NCBI RefSeq assembly: GCF_002968285.2
Contig: NZ_CP134400.1
Location: 3,968,001-4,032,000, forward strand
Source: Mycobacterium sp. ITM-2016-00318
Lineage (GTDB): Bacteria; Actinomycetota; Actinomycetes; Mycobacteriales; Mycobacteriaceae
Direction of reading: 5' to 3'
Length of the DNA: 64,000 nucleotides
The position numbers and the translations under genes are program-made. Position 1 is the stretch's first letter; each line of letters starts with the position of its first letter. The notes below the pieces were generated by a model, which saw only the letters and a list, made by a program, of their open reading frames with translations, searched no databases and was not told where the DNA came from. Positions 84-10,347 of this stretch are shown in pieces.

Positions 84-1399
84 TCGGTTGTGCCCTCCAG
101 TCGAAGCACGCTGGTCACGTCCTGCACGACGTCGAGGTCGGCGAGTGCGGCAACCGTGTCGGACAGCGCGGCATCGGTCGCCTCGTGTGTGACGACGACG
201 ATCCGTGCCCCGCACCGCTGGCCGCCTTCGTCCACGACACCTTCCTGCCTGACTTCGGCGATGCTCACCTCTCGCTTGCCGAATTCGGCTGCGACAGCGG
301 ACAATACGCCGGGCCGGTCGGCGACGTTCATGCTGACGTAGTAACGGGTGGGAATGAAACCGATCGGCGAGATGGGCAGCTTGGCGTATTTCGACTCGCG
401 GGGGCCACGGCCGCCCTGTACCCGGTTGCGCGCAGCCATCACCAGATCGCCCATCACCGCCGACGCCGTCGGGGCGCCGCCTGCACCCTGGCCATAGAAC
501 ATCAGCCGCCCAGCCGCCTCAGCCTCGACGACCACCGCGTTGAACGCCCCGTTGACCGAAGCGAGGGGGTGGCTCAACGGCACGAGCGCCGGGTAGACGC
601 GAGCCGAAATCCGCTCCTGTCCTTCGTCATTGGTGAGGCGCTCACAGATCGACAGGAGCTTGATGGTGCAGCCGAGCGCACGTGCGGTCTTGAAGTCCGC
701 CGGCGTGACTTTCGTGATTCCCTCGCGGTAGACGTCGTCGGCGGTGACGCGAGTGTGGAACGCGATCGACGCGAGGATCGCGGCCTTGGCCGCCGCGTCG
801 TAACCCTCGACGTCGGCGGTGGGATCGGCTTCGGCGTAGCCGAGCGCGCTCGCATCAGCCAACGCGGCCGAGTAATCGGCGCCGGTGCTGTCCATCTCCG
901 AGAGGATGTAATTGGTGGTGCCGTTGACGATGCCGGCCACCCGCAGCACGGTGTCGCCGGCCAGCGACTGGGTGAGCGGCCGGATCACCGGGATGGCGCC
1001 GGCGACCGCCGCCTCGAAGTAGAGGTCGACGTGTGCGTGCTCGGCGGCTTGGGCCAGCTCGCCGGTGGACTGCGCCATCAGCGCCTTGTTGGCGGTGACA
1101 ACGGACTTGCCTTTTTCCAGGGCGGACAGGATCGCCTTGCGTGCGGGTTCAACTGGGCCCATCACCTCGACGACGACGTCGACATCGTCGCGCGAGACGA
1201 GTTCCTCGATGTCGCTGGTGAGCATGTCCTCCGGGACGCCGCGATCTTCGGCGACCCGCCGCACACCGACACCGCGCAGCACAAGCGGCGCACCGATGCG
1301 CGCAGTAAGGTCCTCGGCGCTCTCCTCGATGATGCGCACGACCTGGCTGCCGACGTTGCCGAGGCCCAATACCGCCACCCCGATGGGTTTTTCGTTCAT
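80..1399 (-). CDS. hom: Homoserine dehydrogenase
   Basis: A cytoplasmic enzyme of 439 residues that reduces aspartate semialdehyde to homoserine with NAD(P)H, the branch point to threonine and methionine. A Rossmann motif GLGNVG is at residues 12-17. The catalytic homoserine-dehydrogenase core follows, with the family signature region around AEADPTADVEGYDAAAK. A C-terminal ACT domain begins near YYVSMNVADRPGVL and suggests allosteric control by threonine. It lies 5 bp after lysA and overlaps thrC by 4 bp, so it is in the argS-lysA-hom-thrC operon. It is also called thrA in M. tuberculosis. Confidence 0.97.
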   Translation of the reverse strand: MNEKPIGVAVLGLGNVGSQVVRIIEESAEDLTARIGAPLVLRGVGVRRVAEDRGVPEDMLTSDIEELVSRDDVDVVVEVMGPVEPARKAILSALEKGKSVVTANKALMAQSTGELAQAAEHAHVDLYFEAAVAGAIPVIRPLTQSLAGDTVLRVAGIVNGTTNYILSEMDSTGADYSAALADASALGYAEADPTADVEGYDAAAKAAILASIAFHTRVTADDVYREGITKVTPADFKTARALGCTIKLLSICERLTNDEGQERISARVYPALVPLSHPLASVNGAFNAVVVEAEAAGRLMFYGQGAGGAPTASAVMGDLVMAARNRVQGGRGPRESKYAKLPISPIGFIPTRYYVSMNVADRPGVLSAVAAEFGKREVSIAEVRQEGVVDEGGQRCGARIVVVTHEATDAALSDTVAALADLDVVQDVTSVLRLEGTTE

Positions 1400-1404
1400 A
1401 GTTG

Positions 1405-2820
1405 TTACCTCACTTCCAGACTGAGCAGATCGTCGACCGTTTCCCGGCGCAGGATCAGGCGGGCCCGCCCGTCGCGCACGGCCACCACTGCGGGGCGGCC
1501 GATCAGGTTGTAACGGCTCGACATGGAATAGCAGTACGCGCCGGTGGCCGCCACACCCAGCAGATCACCGGGCTCGACGTCGTCGGACACCCATGCGTCG
1601 CGAACAACGATGTCGCCGCTTTCACAATGCTTTCCGACGATACGGCCGAGCGTCGGAGCGGCGTCGCTGGTTCGGGAGATCAGGCGTACGTCGTACTCGG
1701 CGCCGTAGAGCGAGGTCCTGATGTTGTCACTCATGCCGCCGTCGACGCTGACGTAGCGCCGGTGAGCGGTCGGGCTGACGGCAACGTCTTTGACGGTGCC
1801 GACCCGGTACAGCGTGATGGTGCCGGGACCCGCGATGGCGCGTCCCGGTTCGACGACGAGGCGCGGGGTGGGTAGGCCGACGGCCGCCGACTCGTGGCGC
1901 ACGATCGCGCCGAGCTTCGCGGCGAGGTCTTCGACCGGCGGCGGATCGTCCTGCGGCAGATAGGAAATGCCGAGCCCGCCGCCGAGGTCGACGGCGGCGA
2001 TCTGCGCGGTCTTGTCGACGCCGAACTCGGCGACCACGTCGCGCAGCAGCCCGATGACCCGGTGTGCGGCGAGCTCGAATCCGGCTACATCGAAGATCTG
2101 CGAACCGATGTGGCTGTGCAGCCCGACCAGTCGCAGGTGGTCGGTGTCGAACACTCGGCGCACCGCGGCCATGGCCGCTCCGCTCGCCAGCGACAGCCCG
2201 AACTTCTGGTCTTCGTGGGCGGTGGAGATGAACTCGTGGGTATGGGCCTCGACACCGACCGTGACCCGCACCAGCACGTCTTGCACGACGCCTGCGGCGC
2301 CGGCGATCTCATCGAGGCGCTCGATCTCGATCATCGAGTCGAGCACGATGTGCCCGACTCCGGCCTTGACCGCCGCGGTGAGCTCGTCGACGGATTTGTT
2401 GTTGCCGTGCAGAGCGATACGTTCGGCCGGAAAGTCGGCGTGCAGCGCGACGGCGAGTTCGCCACCGCTGGCCACGTCCAACGACAACCCTTCTTCGTCG
2501 ACCCAGCGCGCAACCTCGGTGCACAGAAACGCCTTGGCCGCGTACCGCACTTTGTCGCCGCCACCGAACGCCGCAGCGATCTCGCGACAGCGCGATCGGA
2601 AGTCGTCTTCGTCGATGACGAAGACCGGCGTGCCGAACTCCTCGGCGATGTGGATGACCGTCACGCCTGCGATCGACACCACACCGTCAGCCCCGCGAAC
2701 CGCGTTGCGCGGCCACACATTAGACGCCAGCGTCAGCAGCTGGCCAGGCGACTGCGGGCGCTGGGGTGTGCCGACGTGGTGGATCTCCTCGGCGTGGCGA
2801 GGACCGGCGGGATGGGCCAT
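1405..2820 (-). CDS. lysA: Diaminopimelate decarboxylase
   Basis: The last step of lysine synthesis: meso-diaminopimelate is decarboxylated to lysine by a PLP-dependent fold-type III enzyme. The PLP lysine is K96 in [10 protein letters not shown]. The phosphate-binding glycine motif [18 protein letters not shown] and the active-site CESGD motif are all present. At 471 residues it is slightly longer than usual; the first 25 or so residues are poorly conserved, so a start further inside is possible. The ATG overlaps the argS stop by one base (TAATG), implying coupling within the operon. Confidence 0.96.
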
Positions 2821-4472
2821 TACATTCGCTCCGGGGCGGTGACGCCGAGAATGCCGAGACCGTTGCCGATGACCTGGCGGGTGGCCTGGCAGAGCGCGAG
2901 TCGGGCGGTGTGCAGGTCGTTCGGCTCTTCGTCGCCGATCGGCAGCACGCGGCAGGAGTCGTAGAACCGATGATAGTCACCGGCGAGGTCTTCGAGGTAG
3001 CGCGACACCCGGTGCGGCTCGCGCAGCGCGGCTGCGGTCTTCAGCACGCGCGGGAACTCGCCGATGTTGCGGATCAGCGTGCCCTCTTTCTCGTGCGTGA
3101 GCAGCTCGAGATGCGAGGTGTCGGCGGTGAGCCCCAGCTCGGCCGCGTTTCGCGCCAGCGCCGAGAGCCGTGCGTGGGCGTATTGCACGTAGTAGACCGG
3201 GTTTTCGTTGGACGCCGATGACCACAACGCCAGGTCGATGTCGATCGGTGAATCGACCGACGAGCGGATCAGCGAGTACCGCGCGGCGTCGACGCCAATC
3301 GCCTCGACGAGGTCGTCGAGCGTGATGACCGTGCCCGCCCGCTTGCTCATCCGCACGGGTTGCCCGTCGCGGACCAGGTTCACCATCTGCCCGATCAAGA
3401 CTTCGACGGTGGCCGGGTCCTCCCCCAGCGACGACGCGATGGCCTTGAGCCGGGCGATGTAGCCGTGGTGGTCGGCACCGAGCATGTAGATGCACAGATA
3501 GGCGCCGCGCTCGCGCTTATCGAGGTAGTAGGCGATGTCGGCCGCGACATAGGCCGGCTTGCCGTCACTCTTGATGACGACACGGTCCTTGTCATCGCCG
3601 AAGTCGGTGGTGCGCAACCAGGTTGCGCCGTCCTTCTCGTAGATCTTGCCGACATCGCGGAGCCTGGTGATGGCCTCGTCGACCCGGCCGCTGGTGTGCA
3701 TCGAGTCTTCGTGGGTGTAGACGTCGAAGTCGGTGCCGAATTCGTGCAGAGACTCCTTGATGTGGGTGAACATCAGGTCGACCCCGATAGCGCGGAACGT
3801 CTCGTGCATTTCGGCGTCTGGCTGGTTCAGTGCGTCGGGCTCCTTGGCGATCACCTGGGCCGCGATGTCACCGATGTAGTCGCCCGCATAGCCGTCGTCG
3901 GGGGTTGGTTCCCCCTTGGCCGCCGCGATCAGCGAGTTGGTGAACCGGTCGATCTGTGCGCCGTGGTCATTGAAGTAGTACTCCCGGACCACCTCAGCGC
4001 CCTGTGTGGACAGCAGCCGGCCGAGCGCATCGCCGACAGCGGCCCAGCGGGTCCCGCCGATGTGGATGGGGCCCGTCGGGTTCGCCGAGACGAACTCGAG
4101 GTTGACGTTGGTGCCCTTGAGCTCGTCGGAGTGACCGTAGTTCTTGCCCGCCCCGATGACGTTGTCGACGATCATGTTCTGCGCACTGGCGTTGAGCCGG
4201 AGGTTGACGAAGCCGGGCCCTGCCACGTCGGCCGACGAGATGCCGCCGACGGCTGCGAGCGCCGTCGCCAGCCATCCGGCCAGCTCACGCGGGTTTGCGC
4301 CGACCTTCTTGCCGAGCTGAAGTGCCAGGTTGGTGGCGTAATCGCCGTGCTCGGGATTGCGGGGACGCTCGACAGTGACGGTCGCCGGCAGCGCCGAGGT
4401 ATCCAGGTCATGCTCGGTCAACACCGCGGCGGCGGTGGTCTTGAGCAGCTCAGCCAGGTCGGCGGGGGTCAC
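2820..4472 (-). CDS. argS: Arginyl-tRNA synthetase
   Basis: A class Ia aminoacyl-tRNA synthetase of 550 residues that charges tRNA-Arg in the cytoplasm. An N-terminal Add-1 tRNA-binding domain is followed by the HIGH-type motif HIGG at residues 137-140 and the KMSKS-type motif RMSKRAG. A DALR anticodon-binding domain ends the protein. It is the first gene of the minus-strand argS-lysA-hom-thrC operon. It is divergent from a tRNA-Arg gene 105 bp away, so an arginine tRNA and its synthetase gene share one intergenic region. Confidence 0.98.
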
Positions 4473-4577
4473 GAGGGTCCATCCTATGGTCTCCGGTGGT
4501 CAGGCCCCGAATCGATAAACCAGCCGCTCGATGCGCTAATCTGTGCACGCCCATTGGCGCAGCCAGTACTCCCATGC

Positions 4578-4650
4578 GCCCCCGTAGCTCAGGGGATAGA
4601 GCGTCTGCCTCCGGAGCAGAAGGCCGCAGGTTCGAATCCTGCCGGGGGCA
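4578..4650 (+). tRNA. tRNA-Arg (anticodon CCG)
   Basis: The acceptor stem GCCCCCG pairs with CGGGGGC, and the discriminator is A at 4650. The D-arm is GTAGCTCAGGGGATAGAGC. The anticodon stem TCTGC/GCAGA encloses the loop CTCCGGA, giving anticodon CCG, which reads CGG. The T-arm is GCAGGTTCGAATCCTGC. No CCA is encoded. The last 12 bases of the gene plus 7 downstream bases recur at 5956-5974. Confidence 0.97.
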
Positions 4651-4657
4651 CCCATGT
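4639..4657. repeat. Left copy of 19-bp direct repeat (tRNA-Arg 3' end)
   Basis: The sequence CTGCCGGGGGCACCCATGT covers the tRNA 3' end and 7 bases beyond it. An identical copy lies at 5956-5974. The two copies closely flank the IS481-like element. This is either an unusually long target-site duplication or an attachment-site-like duplication. Confidence 0.9.
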
Positions 4658-4681
4658 GATGTCTCAGGACATAGGAATAGT

Positions 4682-4715
4682 CCGAACCCTCGTTTAGGGT
4701 TCGGGCTTTTTCTTT
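4682..4715 (+). terminator. Intrinsic terminator downstream of tRNA-Arg
   Basis: CCGAACCCT (4682-4690) and AGGGTTCGG (4696-4704) form a perfect 9-bp stem with a 5-base loop, followed by a T-rich run CTTTTTCTTT. It would stop transcription from the tRNA before it runs antisense through the transposase. It lies inside the IS, over the last codons of the transposase, so it may serve to insulate the element. Confidence 0.75.
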
Positions 4716-5884
4716 GGGCGGCCGCAGGGCACGCCGCGGGGTTGGTAGTCCCTGGTCGGGTCCAAGGTTAGCTGGCGGATGAGTTGGCCGGTGGCGGCGT
4801 TGATGATGCGGATGTCGAGGGCTTGGACGAGCAAAAGGACGCGGGTGCCGGCGTGGGTTCGGCCGATGCCGATGTGGTGGAGGCGGCCGGCGACGCGCAG
4901 GGTGATGGTGCCGCTGGTGTCGACTCGGTCGGTGCGTACTCGGTTGTGGGTGTCGAGGCGTTCGCCGGGGGCGGCTTTGGGTCGGGCGGTGTATGCGGTG
5001 GCCGGGGTGGCGCGGTGGGGTAGTTCACGGTGTGGCCGGCGGTGGTTGTATTCGTCGACGAAGGCGTCGAGTTGGGTTTGTAGCTCGATGAGGGTGGCTG
5101 CTGCGGGTTGGTGGATGATCCACTTTTTGAGGGTTTGGTGGAAGCGTTCTACCTTGCCGCAGGTCGTCGGGTGTCCGGGGGTGGAGTTGATTTGGATGAT
5201 GCCCAGACGGTGCAGTTCGTTTTCCAATGCGTTGCGGCCACCTTTGCCGCCTGATAGGCGGGTGGTGAAAACCATGCCGTTGTCGGTGAGTGTTGACACC
5301 GGAATCCCGTGTGCTTCACAGGCTTTCTTGAAGCTGGTCACGACAATGGGTCCGGTGACTCGACGGTGGGCGGTGACCGAGAGCGCATAGCGGGCGTGGT
5401 CGTCGATCCAGTTGAGGATTTCCACATGGGTGTCGTCGGCGAGCCACCAGTGAGTGAAGTCGGCCTGCCAGCGTTCGTTGGGTTGCTCGGCGGCGAATCG
5501 GATGAACGACGACTTGGGCCGCTTCTGCGGTGCCGGGTCGATCAGCCCGGCCGCGCGCAGGTGGCGATGGATCGTCGCTGGCGATACCCGTAATCGGTGG
5601 TGGGTTTCCAAGTGCCAGGCGATGGTGTGCGGCCCGTGATCGAGCCCTTTGCCCGCCAGTGTGGCTCGCAACTCGACGATCAGATCGATCGTCGATTGCG
5701 GCAACCGGCTCGGGTGAGTGTGCGGGCGACGTGGCCGCGGCTGGAATGCGGCCTCGCCCTCGAGCTGGTAGCGCTTGACCAGCCGGCTGATCCAGCCCTG
5801 CGAGACGCCGTACCTCCGGGCGACTTCAGATTGGCTGCGGCCCTCAACGATGACAGCGGTAATGACTAGACGAGCCTTCGACAC
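4694..5884 (-). CDS. IS481-family transposase
   Basis: A DDE transposase of 396 residues that cuts and joins the ends of its IS. An N-terminal helix-turn-helix (SQSEVARRYGVSQGWISRLV, residues 17-36) is followed by an rve integrase core. The probable catalytic triad is D142 (WQADFTHWW), D201 (LTDNGMVF) and E246 (GKVERFHQT). The start is GTG. The reading frame is intact over the family's usual length, so the copy may still be active. It is antisense to the flanking tRNA. Confidence 0.95.
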   Translation of the reverse strand: MSKARLVITAVIVEGRSQSEVARRYGVSQGWISRLVKRYQLEGEAAFQPRPRRPHTHPSRLPQSTIDLIVELRATLAGKGLDHGPHTIAWHLETHHRLRVSPATIHRHLRAAGLIDPAPQKRPKSSFIRFAAEQPNERWQADFTHWWLADDTHVEILNWIDDHARYALSVTAHRRVTGPIVVTSFKKACEAHGIPVSTLTDNGMVFTTRLSGGKGGRNALENELHRLGIIQINSTPGHPTTCGKVERFHQTLKKWIIHQPAAATLIELQTQLDAFVDEYNHRRPHRELPHRATPATAYTARPKAAPGERLDTHNRVRTDRVDTSGTITLRVAGRLHHIGIGRTHAGTRVLLLVQALDIRIINAATGQLIRQLTLDPTRDYQPRGVPCGRPKKKPEP

Positions 5885-5955
5885 CCACCGACAGTCACGC
5901 CAACGCCTATTCGCATGTCTTGAGACACGCTATTCGCATGTCCTGAAACCAGACA

Positions 5956-5974
5956 CTGCCGGGGGCACCCATGT
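5956..5974. repeat. Right copy of 19-bp direct repeat
   Basis: This copy is identical to 4639-4657 and lies immediately outside the right end of the IS. It carries no tRNA body, only the 3' acceptor and T-arm edge sequence. Confidence 0.9.
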
Positions 5975-6199: not shown

Positions 6200-9100
6200 A
6201 TGAGTACAGCGTCGTCCAGTCGGCATTCTTGTAATCGGGCGGCTCGCCGTCGCGCTCGGCACCGCCGGGGTCGGGTCCCTGTCGGCTATGAAGTCAGTGT
6301 TCGAGACGGACGATTGGTGCGAAGCCAGAGCGCCGGGCAGGCGCGCACAGTACGAGATTCAGTCGCACTTGTCCCCATGCGGCAACGCCGCCGACACGGT
6401 GTTCACAGACGTTCGGCAAATCGTGGTTACGTCACTGCGGGAGTTGCAGCGCTTGGAGCGAGCGCACTGGTCGGCTCTCTGGTGTCGCCGGTCCCAGACG
6501 ACACTGGATCCACGGAAGTTCAGCTCACCGTGGCAGCAGCGCGCACGCCGATGCCCAATGAGCTGGTGGCAGCCCTCGTTGCGCGGGATGGCGTGAGTAC
6601 AGCGATTCCGGGCGCCTCAACACTGCGCAGTGCTTTGACCATGAGTGTATCGAGCACTGGTCAGGCGGTACGAGCCATCGCAGTGCAGGTCGAGAGAATC
6701 GCTGCTGCGATTAACACCGGCATCATCGACCCTGCGACCGGCGACCTCTCGGACGCGGATCTCGATTCAGCGGTTCTGGCCCTCGCCGCAGCGGTCGGCG
6801 GCTTGGCGTCAGGAGCTGAGATCGCTTTCGTTTTATGGGACACATTCCATATCGTCTTTGACACCCTGGTTACCGGCGTCGGCCTGTCGGGTGCCGAAGT
6901 AGCCGCAGGGCTCTTCAACGTACTTACCGGCACACTGCTGGATAGCATGAACGCGCTCGCTGCGAGCGGCGTGATCCCGGTTCCGGCAGCTGCGGCCGCT
7001 ACGGCAATGCTCGGGTTGTTCTCCACTGTGGTCAACACCGGCATCGCAGGCATCGGCACCGCGGTCGCGTTAGAGGCGAGCATTGACCTCGCTCTTGCCT
7101 TCGCCGTATCTACGTTGGGCAGAGGCGTCGTTGACACGCTGGCCGGTTTGGCAGGCGGTGAGTTCCCTGACCTGAGTTTGGCCGCCTTAGTGACGCTCCT
7201 TAACGACGTGCTGGCCCCATTCCCGGACTTCCCGGGCTTCCCGGGCGGCGAGTTCCCGACCCTCGACCTCGCGGCCCTGGTGGCACTGCTGCGCAATGCG
7301 CTGCCCGACTTCCCGGGCGGCGAGTTCCCGACCCTCGACCTCGCGGCCCTGGTGGCACTGCTGCGCAACGCGCTGCCCGACTTCCCGGGCTTGCCGGGTG
7401 GCGAGTTCCCGACCCTCGACCTCGCGGCCCTGGTGGCACTGCTGCGCAACGCGCTGCCCGACTTCCCGGGCTTGCCGGGTGGCGAGTTCCCGACCCTCGA
7501 CCTCGCGGCCCTGGTGGCACTGCTGCGCAACGCGCTGCCCGACTTCCCGGGCTTGCCGGGTGGCGAGCTCCCGACCCTCGACCTCGCGGCCCTGGTGGCA
7601 CTGCTGCGCAACGCCCTGCCCGACTTCCCGGGCTTGCCGGGTGGCGAGTTCCCGACCCTCGACCTCGCGGCCCTGGTGGCACCGCTGCGCAACGCCCTGC
7701 CCGACTTCCCGGGCTTGCCGGGTGGCGAGTTCCCGACCCTCGACCTCGCGGCCCTGGTGGCACTGCTGCGCAACGCCCTGCCCGACTTCCCGGGCTTGCC
7801 GGGTGGCGAGTTCCCGACCCTCGACCTCGCCGCCCTGGTGGCACTACTGCACAACGCACTGCCCGACTTCCCGGGCTTGCCGGGTGGCGAGTTCCCGACC
7901 CTCGACCTCGCCGCCCTGGTGGCACTACTGCACAACGCGCTGCCCGACTTCCCGGGCTTGCCGGGTGGCGAGCTCCCGACCCTCAACCTCGCCGCCCTGG
8001 TGGCACTACTGCACAACGCGCTGCCCGACTTCCCGGGCTTGCCGGGTGGCGAGCTCCCGACCCTCAACCTCGCCGCCCTGGTAGCACTACTGCACAACGC
8101 GCTGCCCGACTTCCCGGGCTTGCCGGGTGGCGAGCTCCCGACCCTCGACCTCGCCGCCCTGGTAGCACTACTGCACAACGCGCTGCCCGACCTCCCCGAC
8201 GGCGACTTCCCGACCCTCAACCTCGCCGCCCTGGTAGCACTGCTGCACAACGCGCTGCCCGACCTCCCCGACGGCGACTTCCCGACCCTCAACCTCGCCG
8301 CCCTGGTAGCACTGCTGCGCAACGCGCTGCCCGACTTCCCGGGCTTGCCGGGTGGCGAGCTCCCGATCCTCAACCTCGCCGCCCTGGTAGCACTACTGCA
8401 CAACGCCCTGCCCGACCTCCCCGACGGCGACTTCCCGACCCTCAACCTCGCCGCCCTGGTAGCACTACTGCACAACGCGCTGCCCGACATCCCCGACGGC
8501 GACTTCCCGACCCTCAACCTCGGCGAACTGCTCGCCCACCTAAGCGGACAGCTCCCCGACCATTCGGACATCGGGCTCGCGGGACTACTGGCCCATTTGA
8601 AATCGCAGTTGCCCGAGCTAACCGATCATTCGGACACACATCTGGAAGCGGTAATCGCACATTTGCGCAAGAATTTGCCGGACCTACCCGGCCAGGCAGA
8701 CGGGGACCTCGGGGCAGTCCTGACGTATCTGCGGGAGAAGTTGCCGGAGCTACCCGACCACCTGGATGGCGGTCTCGCAGCTTTGGTAACCCATCTCCAA
8801 GTGAAGGCGCCCGACCTACCTACCACCGCAGGCGGAGATCTGGCGGCCATCCTCGCCCATCTCCGAGGCAAGTTACCGGGGCTTCCGGACCACCCCGAGG
8901 ACATGCTCGCGGGGGCGCGAAGCGACATAGCGGGGTCGTCCGGACAAGGCCTGGTTGAGGACCTTCCCGACGCGCCACTTGCCGACACGGATCTTCAAAC
9001 AGTGCCTGAGCCGGTCGAGGCGCCACCCGCCGCCAAGCACGCACGACCGGATTGGCAGCAGGCGAGCGATACGGTCGCACCCAGCGATGCCCTCTCGGCG

Positions 9101-9451
9101 GATTCGCCGGCCGACGTCGCGAACAGGCCAAGGCATGCGCTGCCGGATTGGCATGAGCCCGAGGATTCACAGGGCCCCCGACATGCCCTCGAGGCGGACT
9201 CATCGGTTGACGCAGCGGCTGCGCCGAAGCATGCGCTGCCGGAGGAGTCGCAACGCCCCACGCCGCGGAGGCATTCGCTTCCGAATGCGGGCGTGGCGAG
9301 CCAGTCGGCACACACCCCGCGGAGTGGGTCGGCGGACGGTGCGGACAAGCGGGATTCCACTTCGCCGCGCAACGGCTCGAACTCGGCTTCACAGCACGAC
9401 AACGAAGGAGCGTCGGCATCGAATTCGAATGGAAATGACGGCAGCCGGTAA
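6200..9451 (+). CDS. Large tandem-repeat protein, probably exported
   Basis: A protein of 1083 residues that I cannot assign to a named family. Residues 1-75 are Arg-rich. Residues 77-97 (GYVTAGVAALGASALVGSL) form a hydrophobic segment like a signal peptide or anchor, and Met60 (nt 6377) would make a more normal signal peptide. Residues 110-349 are Ala/Leu-rich and helical. Residues 350-766 are 16 near-identical repeats of 24 or 27 residues, consensus GEFPTLDLAALVALLRNALP plus DFPGLPG or DLPD. Degenerate copies follow to about 893, then a Ser/Asp/Pro-rich tail with repeated [KR]HALPDW-like motifs. Its N-terminus resembles mycobacterial surface proteins. It converges on a mycolic-acid-type methyltransferase gene. 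An adhesin, scaffold or wall protein is possible. Confidence 0.85.
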   Translation: MSTASSSRHSCNRAARRRARHRRGRVPVGYEVSVRDGRLVRSQSAGQARTVRDSVALVPMRQRRRHGVHRRSANRGYVTAGVAALGASALVGSLVSPVPDDTGSTEVQLTVAAARTPMPNELVAALVARDGVSTAIPGASTLRSALTMSVSSTGQAVRAIAVQVERIAAAINTGIIDPATGDLSDADLDSAVLALAAAVGGLASGAEIAFVLWDTFHIVFDTLVTGVGLSGAEVAAGLFNVLTGTLLDSMNALAASGVIPVPAAAAATAMLGLFSTVVNTGIAGIGTAVALEASIDLALAFAVSTLGRGVVDTLAGLAGGEFPDLSLAALVTLLNDVLAPFPDFPGFPGGEFPTLDLAALVALLRNALPDFPGGEFPTLDLAALVALLRNALPDFPGLPGGEFPTLDLAALVALLRNALPDFPGLPGGEFPTLDLAALVALLRNALPDFPGLPGGELPTLDLAALVALLRNALPDFPGLPGGEFPTLDLAALVAPLRNALPDFPGLPGGEFPTLDLAALVALLRNALPDFPGLPGGEFPTLDLAALVALLHNALPDFPGLPGGEFPTLDLAALVALLHNALPDFPGLPGGELPTLNLAALVALLHNALPDFPGLPGGELPTLNLAALVALLHNALPDFPGLPGGELPTLDLAALVALLHNALPDLPDGDFPTLNLAALVALLHNALPDLPDGDFPTLNLAALVALLRNALPDFPGLPGGELPILNLAALVALLHNALPDLPDGDFPTLNLAALVALLHNALPDIPDGDFPTLNLGELLAHLSGQLPDHSDIGLAGLLAHLKSQLPELTDHSDTHLEAVIAHLRKNLPDLPGQADGDLGAVLTYLREKLPELPDHLDGGLAALVTHLQVKAPDLPTTAGGDLAAILAHLRGKLPGLPDHPEDMLAGARSDIAGSSGQGLVEDLPDAPLADTDLQTVPEPVEAPPAAKHARPDWQQASDTVAPSDALSADSPADVANRPRHALPDWHEPEDSQGPRHALEADSSVDAAAAPKHALPEESQRPTPRRHSLPNAGVASQSAHTPRSGSADGADKRDSTSPRNGSNSASQHDNEGASASNSNGNDGSR
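7247..8497 (+). repeat. In-frame tandem minisatellite, 16 units of 81 or 72 bp
   Basis: Units begin at GGC-GAG/GAC-TTC/CTC codons. Unit 1 is 72 bp, units 2-11 are 81 bp, units 12, 13, 15 and 16 are 72 bp, and unit 14 is 81 bp. All lengths are multiples of three, so copy-number change keeps the frame. Nearby units share silent variants (for example CTACTGCACAAC in later units, CTGCTGCGCAAC in earlier ones), showing recent duplication or homogenisation. Because of the repeats, other frames are also open, but they are not genes. Confidence 0.95.
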
Positions 9452-9468: not shown

Positions 9469-10347
9469 CTACCACGTGGCTTTCTCCATCGTAAACTGGT
9501 TGACGTCTAATTTCCTCTCGCAGAACAGGTCTCGACATCCGGTGAGGTACTTATCGAATCGCTCGTAGGCGTCCAGACCTTGCAACTCGATGGTCTCGCT
9601 CTTGTGATCGTGCAACGCTGTGGCCCAATCTTGGAGGGTGCGCGCGTAGTGCGGTTGCAGAGATTGTGTGCAGGTGATGTTCCAGCCGGACTTCGGTGCC
9701 AGCTCGCGAATCATCCTCTCCGACGGCAATTGCCCACCGGGGAAGATCTCGGTGATGATGAACTTGATGAACCGCATCAGCTCGAAAGTCAGCGGGATAC
9801 CGAGGCGTAGGTAGTCGTCGGGGTGGTAGGCGCAGATGGTGTGCAGCAGAACGATGCCGTCATCAGGCACCGTGTCGTAGCAAAAGTCGAAGTATGCCTC
9901 GTACTTCTCATGGCGGAAGTGCTCGAAGGATCCGATCGCGAGGATGCGGTCGACCTTCCCTTCGAACTCCTCCCAGCCCTGTACCCGGACCTCCCAGTTG
10001 CCGTGCCTGCCGTGCGGCATGACATGCGAAAGTCGCATCTCGGCGGCCGCCTGTTGCGCCTTGCTCAGCGTGAGGCCGATGACGTCGATATCATAGTTCT
10101 CCAGAGCACGCTGCATGCCTGCGCCCCAGCCGCAGCCGACGTCGAGCAGGGTCATGCCCGGCTCGAGTTTCAGCTTGTCCTGCGCTAGGTCGAACTTAGC
10201 GAGCTGCGCTTCGTCGCGCGTGGAGTTGGACTCTTTGTAATAACCGCACGTGTAGCCCATGGTAGGGCCGAGGAAGAGTTCGTAGAACTCGGTCGGGATA
10301 TCGTAGATAGACTGCAACAGTTCATAATTCGGTTCCAATTTGGCCAT
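9469..10347 (-). CDS. Mycolic acid / cyclopropane-fatty-acid synthase-family methyltransferase
   Basis: A SAM-dependent methyltransferase of 292 residues, the usual length of the CmaA/MmaA/UmaA family, which modifies double bonds of mycolic or other fatty acids at the membrane. The SAM-binding motif LLDVGCGWG is at about residues 67-75. YTCGYY near residue 33 and YARTLQDWATAL near the C-terminus are family hallmarks. The sequence is divergent enough that I cannot name the paralog. It converges on the repeat-protein gene with 17 bp between stops. Confidence 0.9.
   Translation of the reverse strand: MAKLEPNYELLQSIYDIPTEFYELFLGPTMGYTCGYYKESNSTRDEAQLAKFDLAQDKLKLEPGMTLLDVGCGWGAGMQRALENYDIDVIGLTLSKAQQAAAEMRLSHVMPHGRHGNWEVRVQGWEEFEGKVDRILAIGSFEHFRHEKYEAYFDFCYDTVPDDGIVLLHTICAYHPDDYLRLGIPLTFELMRFIKFIITEIFPGGQLPSERMIRELAPKSGWNITCTQSLQPHYARTLQDWATALHDHKSETIELQGLDAYERFDKYLTGCRDLFCERKLDVNQFTMEKATW

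Follow-up and report, generated by a model that had tools for sequence, protein, structure and literature searches.

Genomic setting and layout of the repeat gene

The window analysed here, a 64,000-nucleotide stretch of the Mycobacterium sp. ITM-2016-00318 genome (positions 3968001-4032000 of a single contig of 5,458,722 bases), carries an ATG-initiated open reading frame for a repeat protein of 1083 aa, located downstream of a tRNA-Arg gene and an insertion element (Table 1).

Table 1. Features of the locus and segments of the repeat protein, in window coordinates
Feature	Position	Strand	Basis or remark
tRNA-Arg (anticodon CCG)	4578-4652	+	tRNA prediction
Insertion element at the tRNA 3' end	4639-5974		19-bp direct repeats, imperfect inverted ends, transposase gene
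19-bp direct repeats	4639-4657 and 5956-5974		left copy covers the tRNA 3' end
Imperfect inverted ends	4661-4680 and 5930-5949
Transposase gene	4694-5884	-	rve and HTH domains
Repeat-protein CDS (stop included)	6200-9451	+	ORF listing; start moderately backed by alignment with P0002
Residues 1-75, Arg-rich N-terminal extension	6200-6424	+	composition; P0002; relatives likewise have Arg-rich extensions
Residues 72-114, segment of the mycobacterial leader type (presumed to be an export signal or a signal anchor)	6413-6541	+	leader profiles, hydropathy
Residues 117-319, Ala/Val/Leu-rich, predicted all-helical domain	6548-7156	+	relatives P0001, L042, L043, L045, L052, L054, L059, L065; model
Unit 1 (30 aa), diverged	7157-7246	+	at the position of the relatives' interdomain proline-plus-helix segment
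Units 2-17, sixteen near-identical units (residues 350-766)	7247-8497	+	TRF, unit parsing
Unit 18 (24 aa), diverged (residues 767-790)	8498-8569	+	unit parsing
Units 19-23, 22 aa each and all five diverged, e.g. GDLGAVLTYLREKLPELPDHLD (residues 791-900)	8570-8899	+	unit parsing
Residues 901-1083, Ala/Ser/Pro/Asp-rich tail	8900-9448	+	composition; model without secondary structure
Convergent gene of the mycolic acid cyclopropane synthetase family, 17 bp away from the stop of the repeat gene	9469-10347	-	PF02353, E = 2.4e-91

The original prediction had placed the gene in a tRNA/IS-flanked position. The tRNA and the transposase gene do adjoin it, but the element lies wholly to its left, the right direct repeat ending 225 bases before the start codon, and does not flank both sides; carriage of the gene by the element is not established. 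The tRNA-plus-transposase stretch aligns at 76% in genomes G009 and G031. Also to the left of the repeat gene lies a gene that we take to be argS. Its neighbours differ in all four relatives with listed genes (L036, L037, L038 and L040), and the site therefore varies; neither the repeat gene nor the cyclopropane synthetase gene was found beside argS in the six loci compared. As to a mobile origin, a comparison with 72,556 plasmid and 50,697 phage records gave no match at E<=1e-5.

Within the protein, residues 1-95 carry a net charge of +18, and the hydrophobic stretch of the leader-type segment spans residues 77-96. Low-complexity tails such as that of residues 901-1083 are also present in several other leader-bearing proteins. 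The ATG start is moderately supported by P0002, a 230-aa protein fragment that aligns from residue 1, its own predicted start lying 13 residues further upstream.

The repeat array is a recent expansion

The array comprises 23 units, of which 18 begin with G[ED][FL]P and five are of the 22-aa type. Unit 1 corresponds to residues 320-349. The sixteen near-identical units of 24 or 27 residues described in the original prediction were confirmed (27 aa in 11 and 24 aa in five); the five diverged 22-aa units had been omitted from that earlier listing. The core consensus is approximately G[ED][FL]PTL[DN]LAALVALL[RH]NALPD, followed in units 2-17 by the linker FPGLPG (n=11), LPD (n=3), FPG (n=1) or IPD (n=1). 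TRF reported 15.0 copies of period 81 (94% matches, score 1789, 7309-8493) and 2.9 copies of period 72 (8354-8560). Identity at lag 81 over a 400-base span peaks at 0.99 (position 7321), whereas the window median is 0.31 and the 99th percentile beyond the array 0.38; the periodicity is far from chance. Because all unit lengths (90, 72, 81 or 66 bp) are whole codons, a change in copy number keeps the reading frame, as had been proposed for the 72/81-bp units.

Divergence between the 16 core units grows with their distance. Over the first 21 codons, base differences average 2.00 between adjacent units and 6.06 between units separated by 8 or more positions; the corresponding silent differences average 0.73 and 3.03. 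Divergence correlates with distance at 0.67 when all bases are counted and at 0.68 for silent changes alone, values each reached in 0 of 10000 permutations; for amino-acid changes the correlation is 0.52, and 2 of 10000 permutations were as high. This graded divergence, with silent changes shared among neighbours, identifies the array as recently expanded, in agreement with the original prediction. Averaged over all pairs, units differ by 2.11 silent and 2.07 amino-acid changes, nearly the same raw number of each. Scaled per site, silent differences are more frequent by a factor of 2.4, and pN/pS is 0.41 over 120 unit pairs, a ratio that is a description and not a test since pairs are not independent, and that omits seven two-base codon comparisons. 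GC3 is 0.89 at residues 320-790, compared with 0.64 before and 0.70 after. The diverged edge units retain the leucine and proline pattern. The array is thus a recent expansion, with the pattern expected of local duplication and drifting edges, and with some constraint on the protein.

An antisense open reading frame of 636 aa (6661-8571) overlaps the repeats and is regarded as a by-product of them; an antisense self-match also turned up in the genus-wide search with the repeat region.

The units are predicted to be helical and lack the leucine-rich-repeat register

Two AlphaFold2 models were examined. The first, built from the protein's own units in shifted copies, contained helices and no strands at a pLDDT of 41.5; the second, built from an alignment with eight relatives, contained 23 helices for 23 units and no strands at a pLDDT of 40.5. 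In both, confidence within the repeat region is highest in the 22-aa units, in blocks of up to 76. The helix-loop character first proposed for the units is supported by these models, one helix per unit, at low confidence. With a mean pLDDT of ~41 in both, the core units may instead be disordered. A fold search with the repeat model (pLDDT 41.5) gave a best E of 0.33 and nothing at E<=0.001, and is regarded as meaningless.

The original prediction also spoke of leucine-rich repeats, and a phmmer search against the PDB did match LRR chains, the best being 5a5c_A at E = 3.7e-16. These matches arise because the units share with LRR proteins a 24-residue period, the N-x-L letters and an LPxGxF motif (LPDG.F). 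The LRR core consensus is LxxLxLxxNxL. Read from F to N, the unit is F-xx-L-x-L-xx-L-xx-L-xx-N, which places two leucines out of register and lacks the LxL strand before the asparagine. A Pfam profile search of the protein returned no LRR model at E<=1 (HMMER filters discard most matches above about 0.1), its sole listing being a sub-cut-off YopR match. On the leucine register, the absent Pfam match and two strand-free, low-confidence models, membership in the beta-alpha LRR class was set aside; the protein is probably not an LRR protein.

The N-terminal part links the protein to a mycobacterial leader group

Residues 72-114 match a mycobacterial leader profile built without the repeat protein at E = 1.9e-8. 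This value is flattered, as the profile rows had themselves been found with the repeat protein as query. An independently seeded profile gave E = 1.9e-5 at rank 61 of 67 matches, with 0 of 500 shuffles at E<=1; its first pass gave E = 0.024, and the repeat protein ranked 60th-61st of 63-68 matches, which marks it as an outlier. By these profiles the repeat protein would be an outlying member of a widespread, uncurated mycobacterial leader group, and the export-type leader of the original prediction is supported at the level of sequence. The protein is therefore probably exported, although the leader lies 71 residues in and may act as an uncleaved anchor. No PE, PPE or PE-PPE domain was detected in the Pfam search, and no NCBIfam or Pfam model scored above its cut-off for the protein.

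Several other leader proteins also contain long internal repeats, unrelated to the units described here. L078, from genome G073, is a 1611-aa frame in which the leader is followed by a long array of 14-aa units resembling LLxxLGLGDxTLxG, with a hydrophobic-position correlation of 0.61 at lag 14. Four others (L123, L125, L126 and L127; 1284-1422 aa) are Ala/Leu-rich and broken by FPxP, with best lags of 11, 61, 79 and 75, respectively. In a scan of 60 leader proteins, 11 (the repeat protein among them) showed self-similarity at z>=8 relative to shuffles and most showed none; seven of the 60 had been fetched for their long frames, and when these are left out, 6 of 53 remain. The scan covered lags 8-130 only, at which the large-domain repeats of L042-type proteins escape detection. 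Two of the 11, L087 and L102, repeat at lags 123-128, which reflects a domain and not a short unit. Another leader protein, L129, carries PF08237.

Relatives of the domain that follows the leader were sought in a set of 5.8 billion proteins, in searches that each scored only the ~8000 candidates sharing most words. Three such searches returned, respectively, the domain match P0001 (E = 2.9e-5), nothing at E<=0.001 (with residues 40-335 as query) and the fragment P0002. In the local ORF set, the domain matched L042 (E = 6.5e-15), L043 (5e-9) and L045 (6.1e-5), with L052, L054, L059 and L065 as further relatives. By these matches the helical domain is related to the P0001/L042 domain family. P0002 shares 68% identity with residues 1 to 217 of the protein and ends there, before the repeats, and an orthologous gene, as judged from this alignment, exists elsewhere; the searches described here brought up no full-length orthologue. 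Among genus genomes, the N-terminal query found matches in 8 of 198 and a shorter query in 14 of 376, both counts including the protein's own genome, in a set with one genome per species, and including some leader-only or chance matches. The C-terminal part was found in its own genome only (1 of 198), as was the repeat region (1 of 376, with no relative in the 375 others). The earlier statement that the protein matches no known family thus needs dividing: the N-terminal part does have relatives in the genus, and no curated family covers it.

Three candidate relationships were set aside. A 237-aa ORF of L048 (E = 7.8e-7 to the N-terminal query) looks like a different protein with an Arg-rich N-terminus. 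A Candidatus Omnitrophota match (L019, 25% identity, query residues 344-625) was judged compositional. Finally, an origin of the unit in the interdomain segment found in relatives fits the position of unit 1, but the profile test was weak and a common origin is not established. On tiled units, profile B, made from 8 DFAASV-type segments, had a score of 4.0 bits, which 2 of 1000 residue shuffles and 0 of 1000 unit permutations matched or exceeded; the corresponding figures were -2.5 bits (449 and 130 of 1000) for profile A, made from 10 DG.DV-type segments, and 1.5 bits (35 and 15 of 1000) for the joint A+B profile.

Proposed role and alternative explanations

We propose that the repeat protein is exported and envelope-associated, a peripheral member of the leader-bearing group with a helix-linker rod lengthened by tandem duplication, and give this reading a probability of roughly one half. 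The Arg-rich N-terminus and hydrophobic leader would take the chain across the membrane; beyond it would follow the ~200-residue helical domain, the rod of 23 helix-plus-proline-linker units and a hydrophilic, presumably disordered tail. The rod would have been built by tandem duplication of DNA, through unequal exchange or slippage of 72/81-bp units, a process expected to homogenise the middle units while those at the edges drift. The short leucine-rich helices may pack on each other or on lipid, and the rod would most likely serve in the outer envelope as a spacer or scaffold of adjustable length, a role that is speculative.

Selfish or neutral repeat expansion, in which a dispensable gene beside an insertion site has acquired a functionless rod, is possible but unlikely. 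It would account for the restriction of the repeat region to a single genome among the 376 of the genus, for the other genes found after argS in four relatives and for the near equality of raw silent and amino-acid differences, and slippage alone yields such arrays. The lower per-site frequency of amino-acid differences (among pairs that are not independent) argues the other way, as do the leucine/proline pattern kept in the diverged edge units and the conservation of the N-terminal part in P0002.

We find it doubtful that the rod is an amphipathic, lipid-binding one, in which proline-punctuated units of 22-27 residues would bind the lipids of the envelope, like exchangeable apolipoproteins, and form a lipid scaffold or carrier. 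The unit length and the prolines between helices fit such a role, and two long leader proteins have sub-cut-off Pfam Apolipoprotein matches (L123, E = 3.6e-9; L126, E = 5e-5), which may nevertheless be driven by composition. The adjoining mycolic acid cyclopropane synthetase gene would suit it too, but could be coincidental, as it was not found beside argS in the six compared loci. The repeat protein itself has no apolipoprotein match at E<=1 (Pfam, PF01442). Its core helix shows only mild amphipathicity (a moment of 0.29-0.32 at 100 degrees and a mean hydrophobicity of 0.36-0.53; the helix moment ranges over 0.19-0.41 at 100 degrees in the comparison with apolipoprotein amphipathicity), and the rod is strongly acidic, with a net charge of -46 over residues 321-790.

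That the protein is a surface adhesin or variable antigen, among the functions first suggested, and that its copy number tunes exposure appears quite unlikely. The export-type leader, the recently expanded array and the hydrophilic tail are in line with it, but Pfam and NCBIfam gave no adhesin family match, the searches of 5.8 billion proteins (~8000 candidates scored each) yielded no second isolate with which to compare lengths, and in our judgement the rod, with 27% Leu and 14% Ala, is rather hydrophobic for an exposed antigen. A true beta-alpha solenoid of 24-residue LRR units is very improbable, since despite its PDB matches the protein lacks the leucine register and a Pfam LRR match at E<=1, shows no strand in either low-confidence model, and has 27 residues in 11 of its 16 core units.

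Returning to the exported envelope rod, the protein is a so far undescribed variant within an uncurated mycobacterial leader group; among the literature matches listed, in a search with most subscription journals outside its scope, no paper dealt with either. The catalogue of mycobacterial outer-envelope proteins is poor, and a leader shared by many uncurated proteins, several of them with long internal repeats, would offer a handle for finding them. With its near-identical units, this gene also lends itself readily to the question of whether the number of repeats determines reach or packing in the envelope, and such arrays may break short-read assemblies and hence be under-recorded. More tentatively, one mycobacterial export leader could be a platform to which different lineages, each on its own, have added rods of short helical repeats (of 24/27 aa here, 14 aa in G073 and roughly 60-80 aa elsewhere), constituting an uncharted group of mycomembrane envelope scaffolds or lipid-handling proteins with lengths tuned by tandem duplication.

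Comparison with known systems

With LRR proteins (5a5c, variable lymphocyte receptors, repebodies), the repeat protein has spacing and motif letters in common, but not the leucine register, the strand (in the models) or a Pfam match. Exchangeable apolipoproteins (PF01442) consist of proline-punctuated helical units of about 22 residues, close in size to the units here; the repeat protein differs from them in its mild amphipathicity and in having no profile match. GjpA, named after Gordonia jacobaea, is modelled in NCBIfam as 'outer membrane porin GjpA' (NF033942) and has sub-cut-off matches in the leader proteins L078 (66 of 100 bits), L084, L130, L082 and others. The repeat protein has no NF033942 match at E<=10 (cut-off 100 bits), and the porin claim cannot be transferred to it. 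The Gordonia jacobaea genome paper mentions a pore-forming protein, without the name GjpA (PMC4559739).

The closest likenesses lie within the leader group. The eight P0001/L042-type proteins compared, also uncurated, share the Arg-rich N-terminus, the hydrophobic leader, the related helical domain and a hydrophilic tail, acidic in their case. P0001, L042, L043 and L045 repeat the large helical domain, with linker segments 135-146 residues apart, whereas the repeat protein has one copy of it followed by short units, and none of the eight contains 24/27-aa units. In L078, too, the leader is followed by a non-repetitive part and, after it, by long tandem leucine-rich units, but its 14-aa Leu/Gly units differ in sequence and length from the 24/27-aa units described here.

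Other leader-bearing proteins and flanking elements

The mycobacterial export-type leader of the repeat protein also heads other proteins in the fetched loci. At locus L130, the ends of two tandem leader genes overlap by 5 bases, and both products are Leu-rich. Their self-repetition z (score against shuffles, lags 8-130) is 3.2 for the first gene and 14.5 for the second; the first matches the NCBIfam model for the outer membrane porin GjpA (NF033942) with an E of 7.2e-9, below the cut-off. The L078 frame has the leader too, together with 14-aa Leu/Gly units repeated in a very long array, and scores 66 bits against the same model (cut-off 100). Four further leader proteins (L123, L125, L126 and L127; 1284-1422 aa) are Ala/Leu-rich with FPxP interruptions, and Pfam Apolipoprotein matches in L123 and L126 both fall below the cut-off. 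The L129 protein additionally matches an acyltransferase PE model, below the cut-off.

Coordinates of leader genes and of the IS-like element
Feature	Position	Strand	Remark
L130 leader gene, first of tandem pair	690-3161	(-)	
L130 leader gene, second of tandem pair	3157-5466	(-)	
L078 leader frame, 1611 aa	2147-6982	(-)	genome G073
L129 leader protein gene	272-2671		leader then PE-PPE domain (PF08237, E 9.5e-27)
IS-like element, rve/HTH transposase	window 4639-5974		3' end of tRNA-Arg(CCG)

The 19-bp direct repeats of the IS-like element take in the tRNA end, and its inverted ends are imperfect. Genomes G009 and G031 also align with this tRNA-plus-transposase stretch. Near the three relatives of the helical domain behind the leader (L042, L043 and L045, in three genomes) lies a putative threonyl-tRNA-synthetase-like gene, so named from its sequence.
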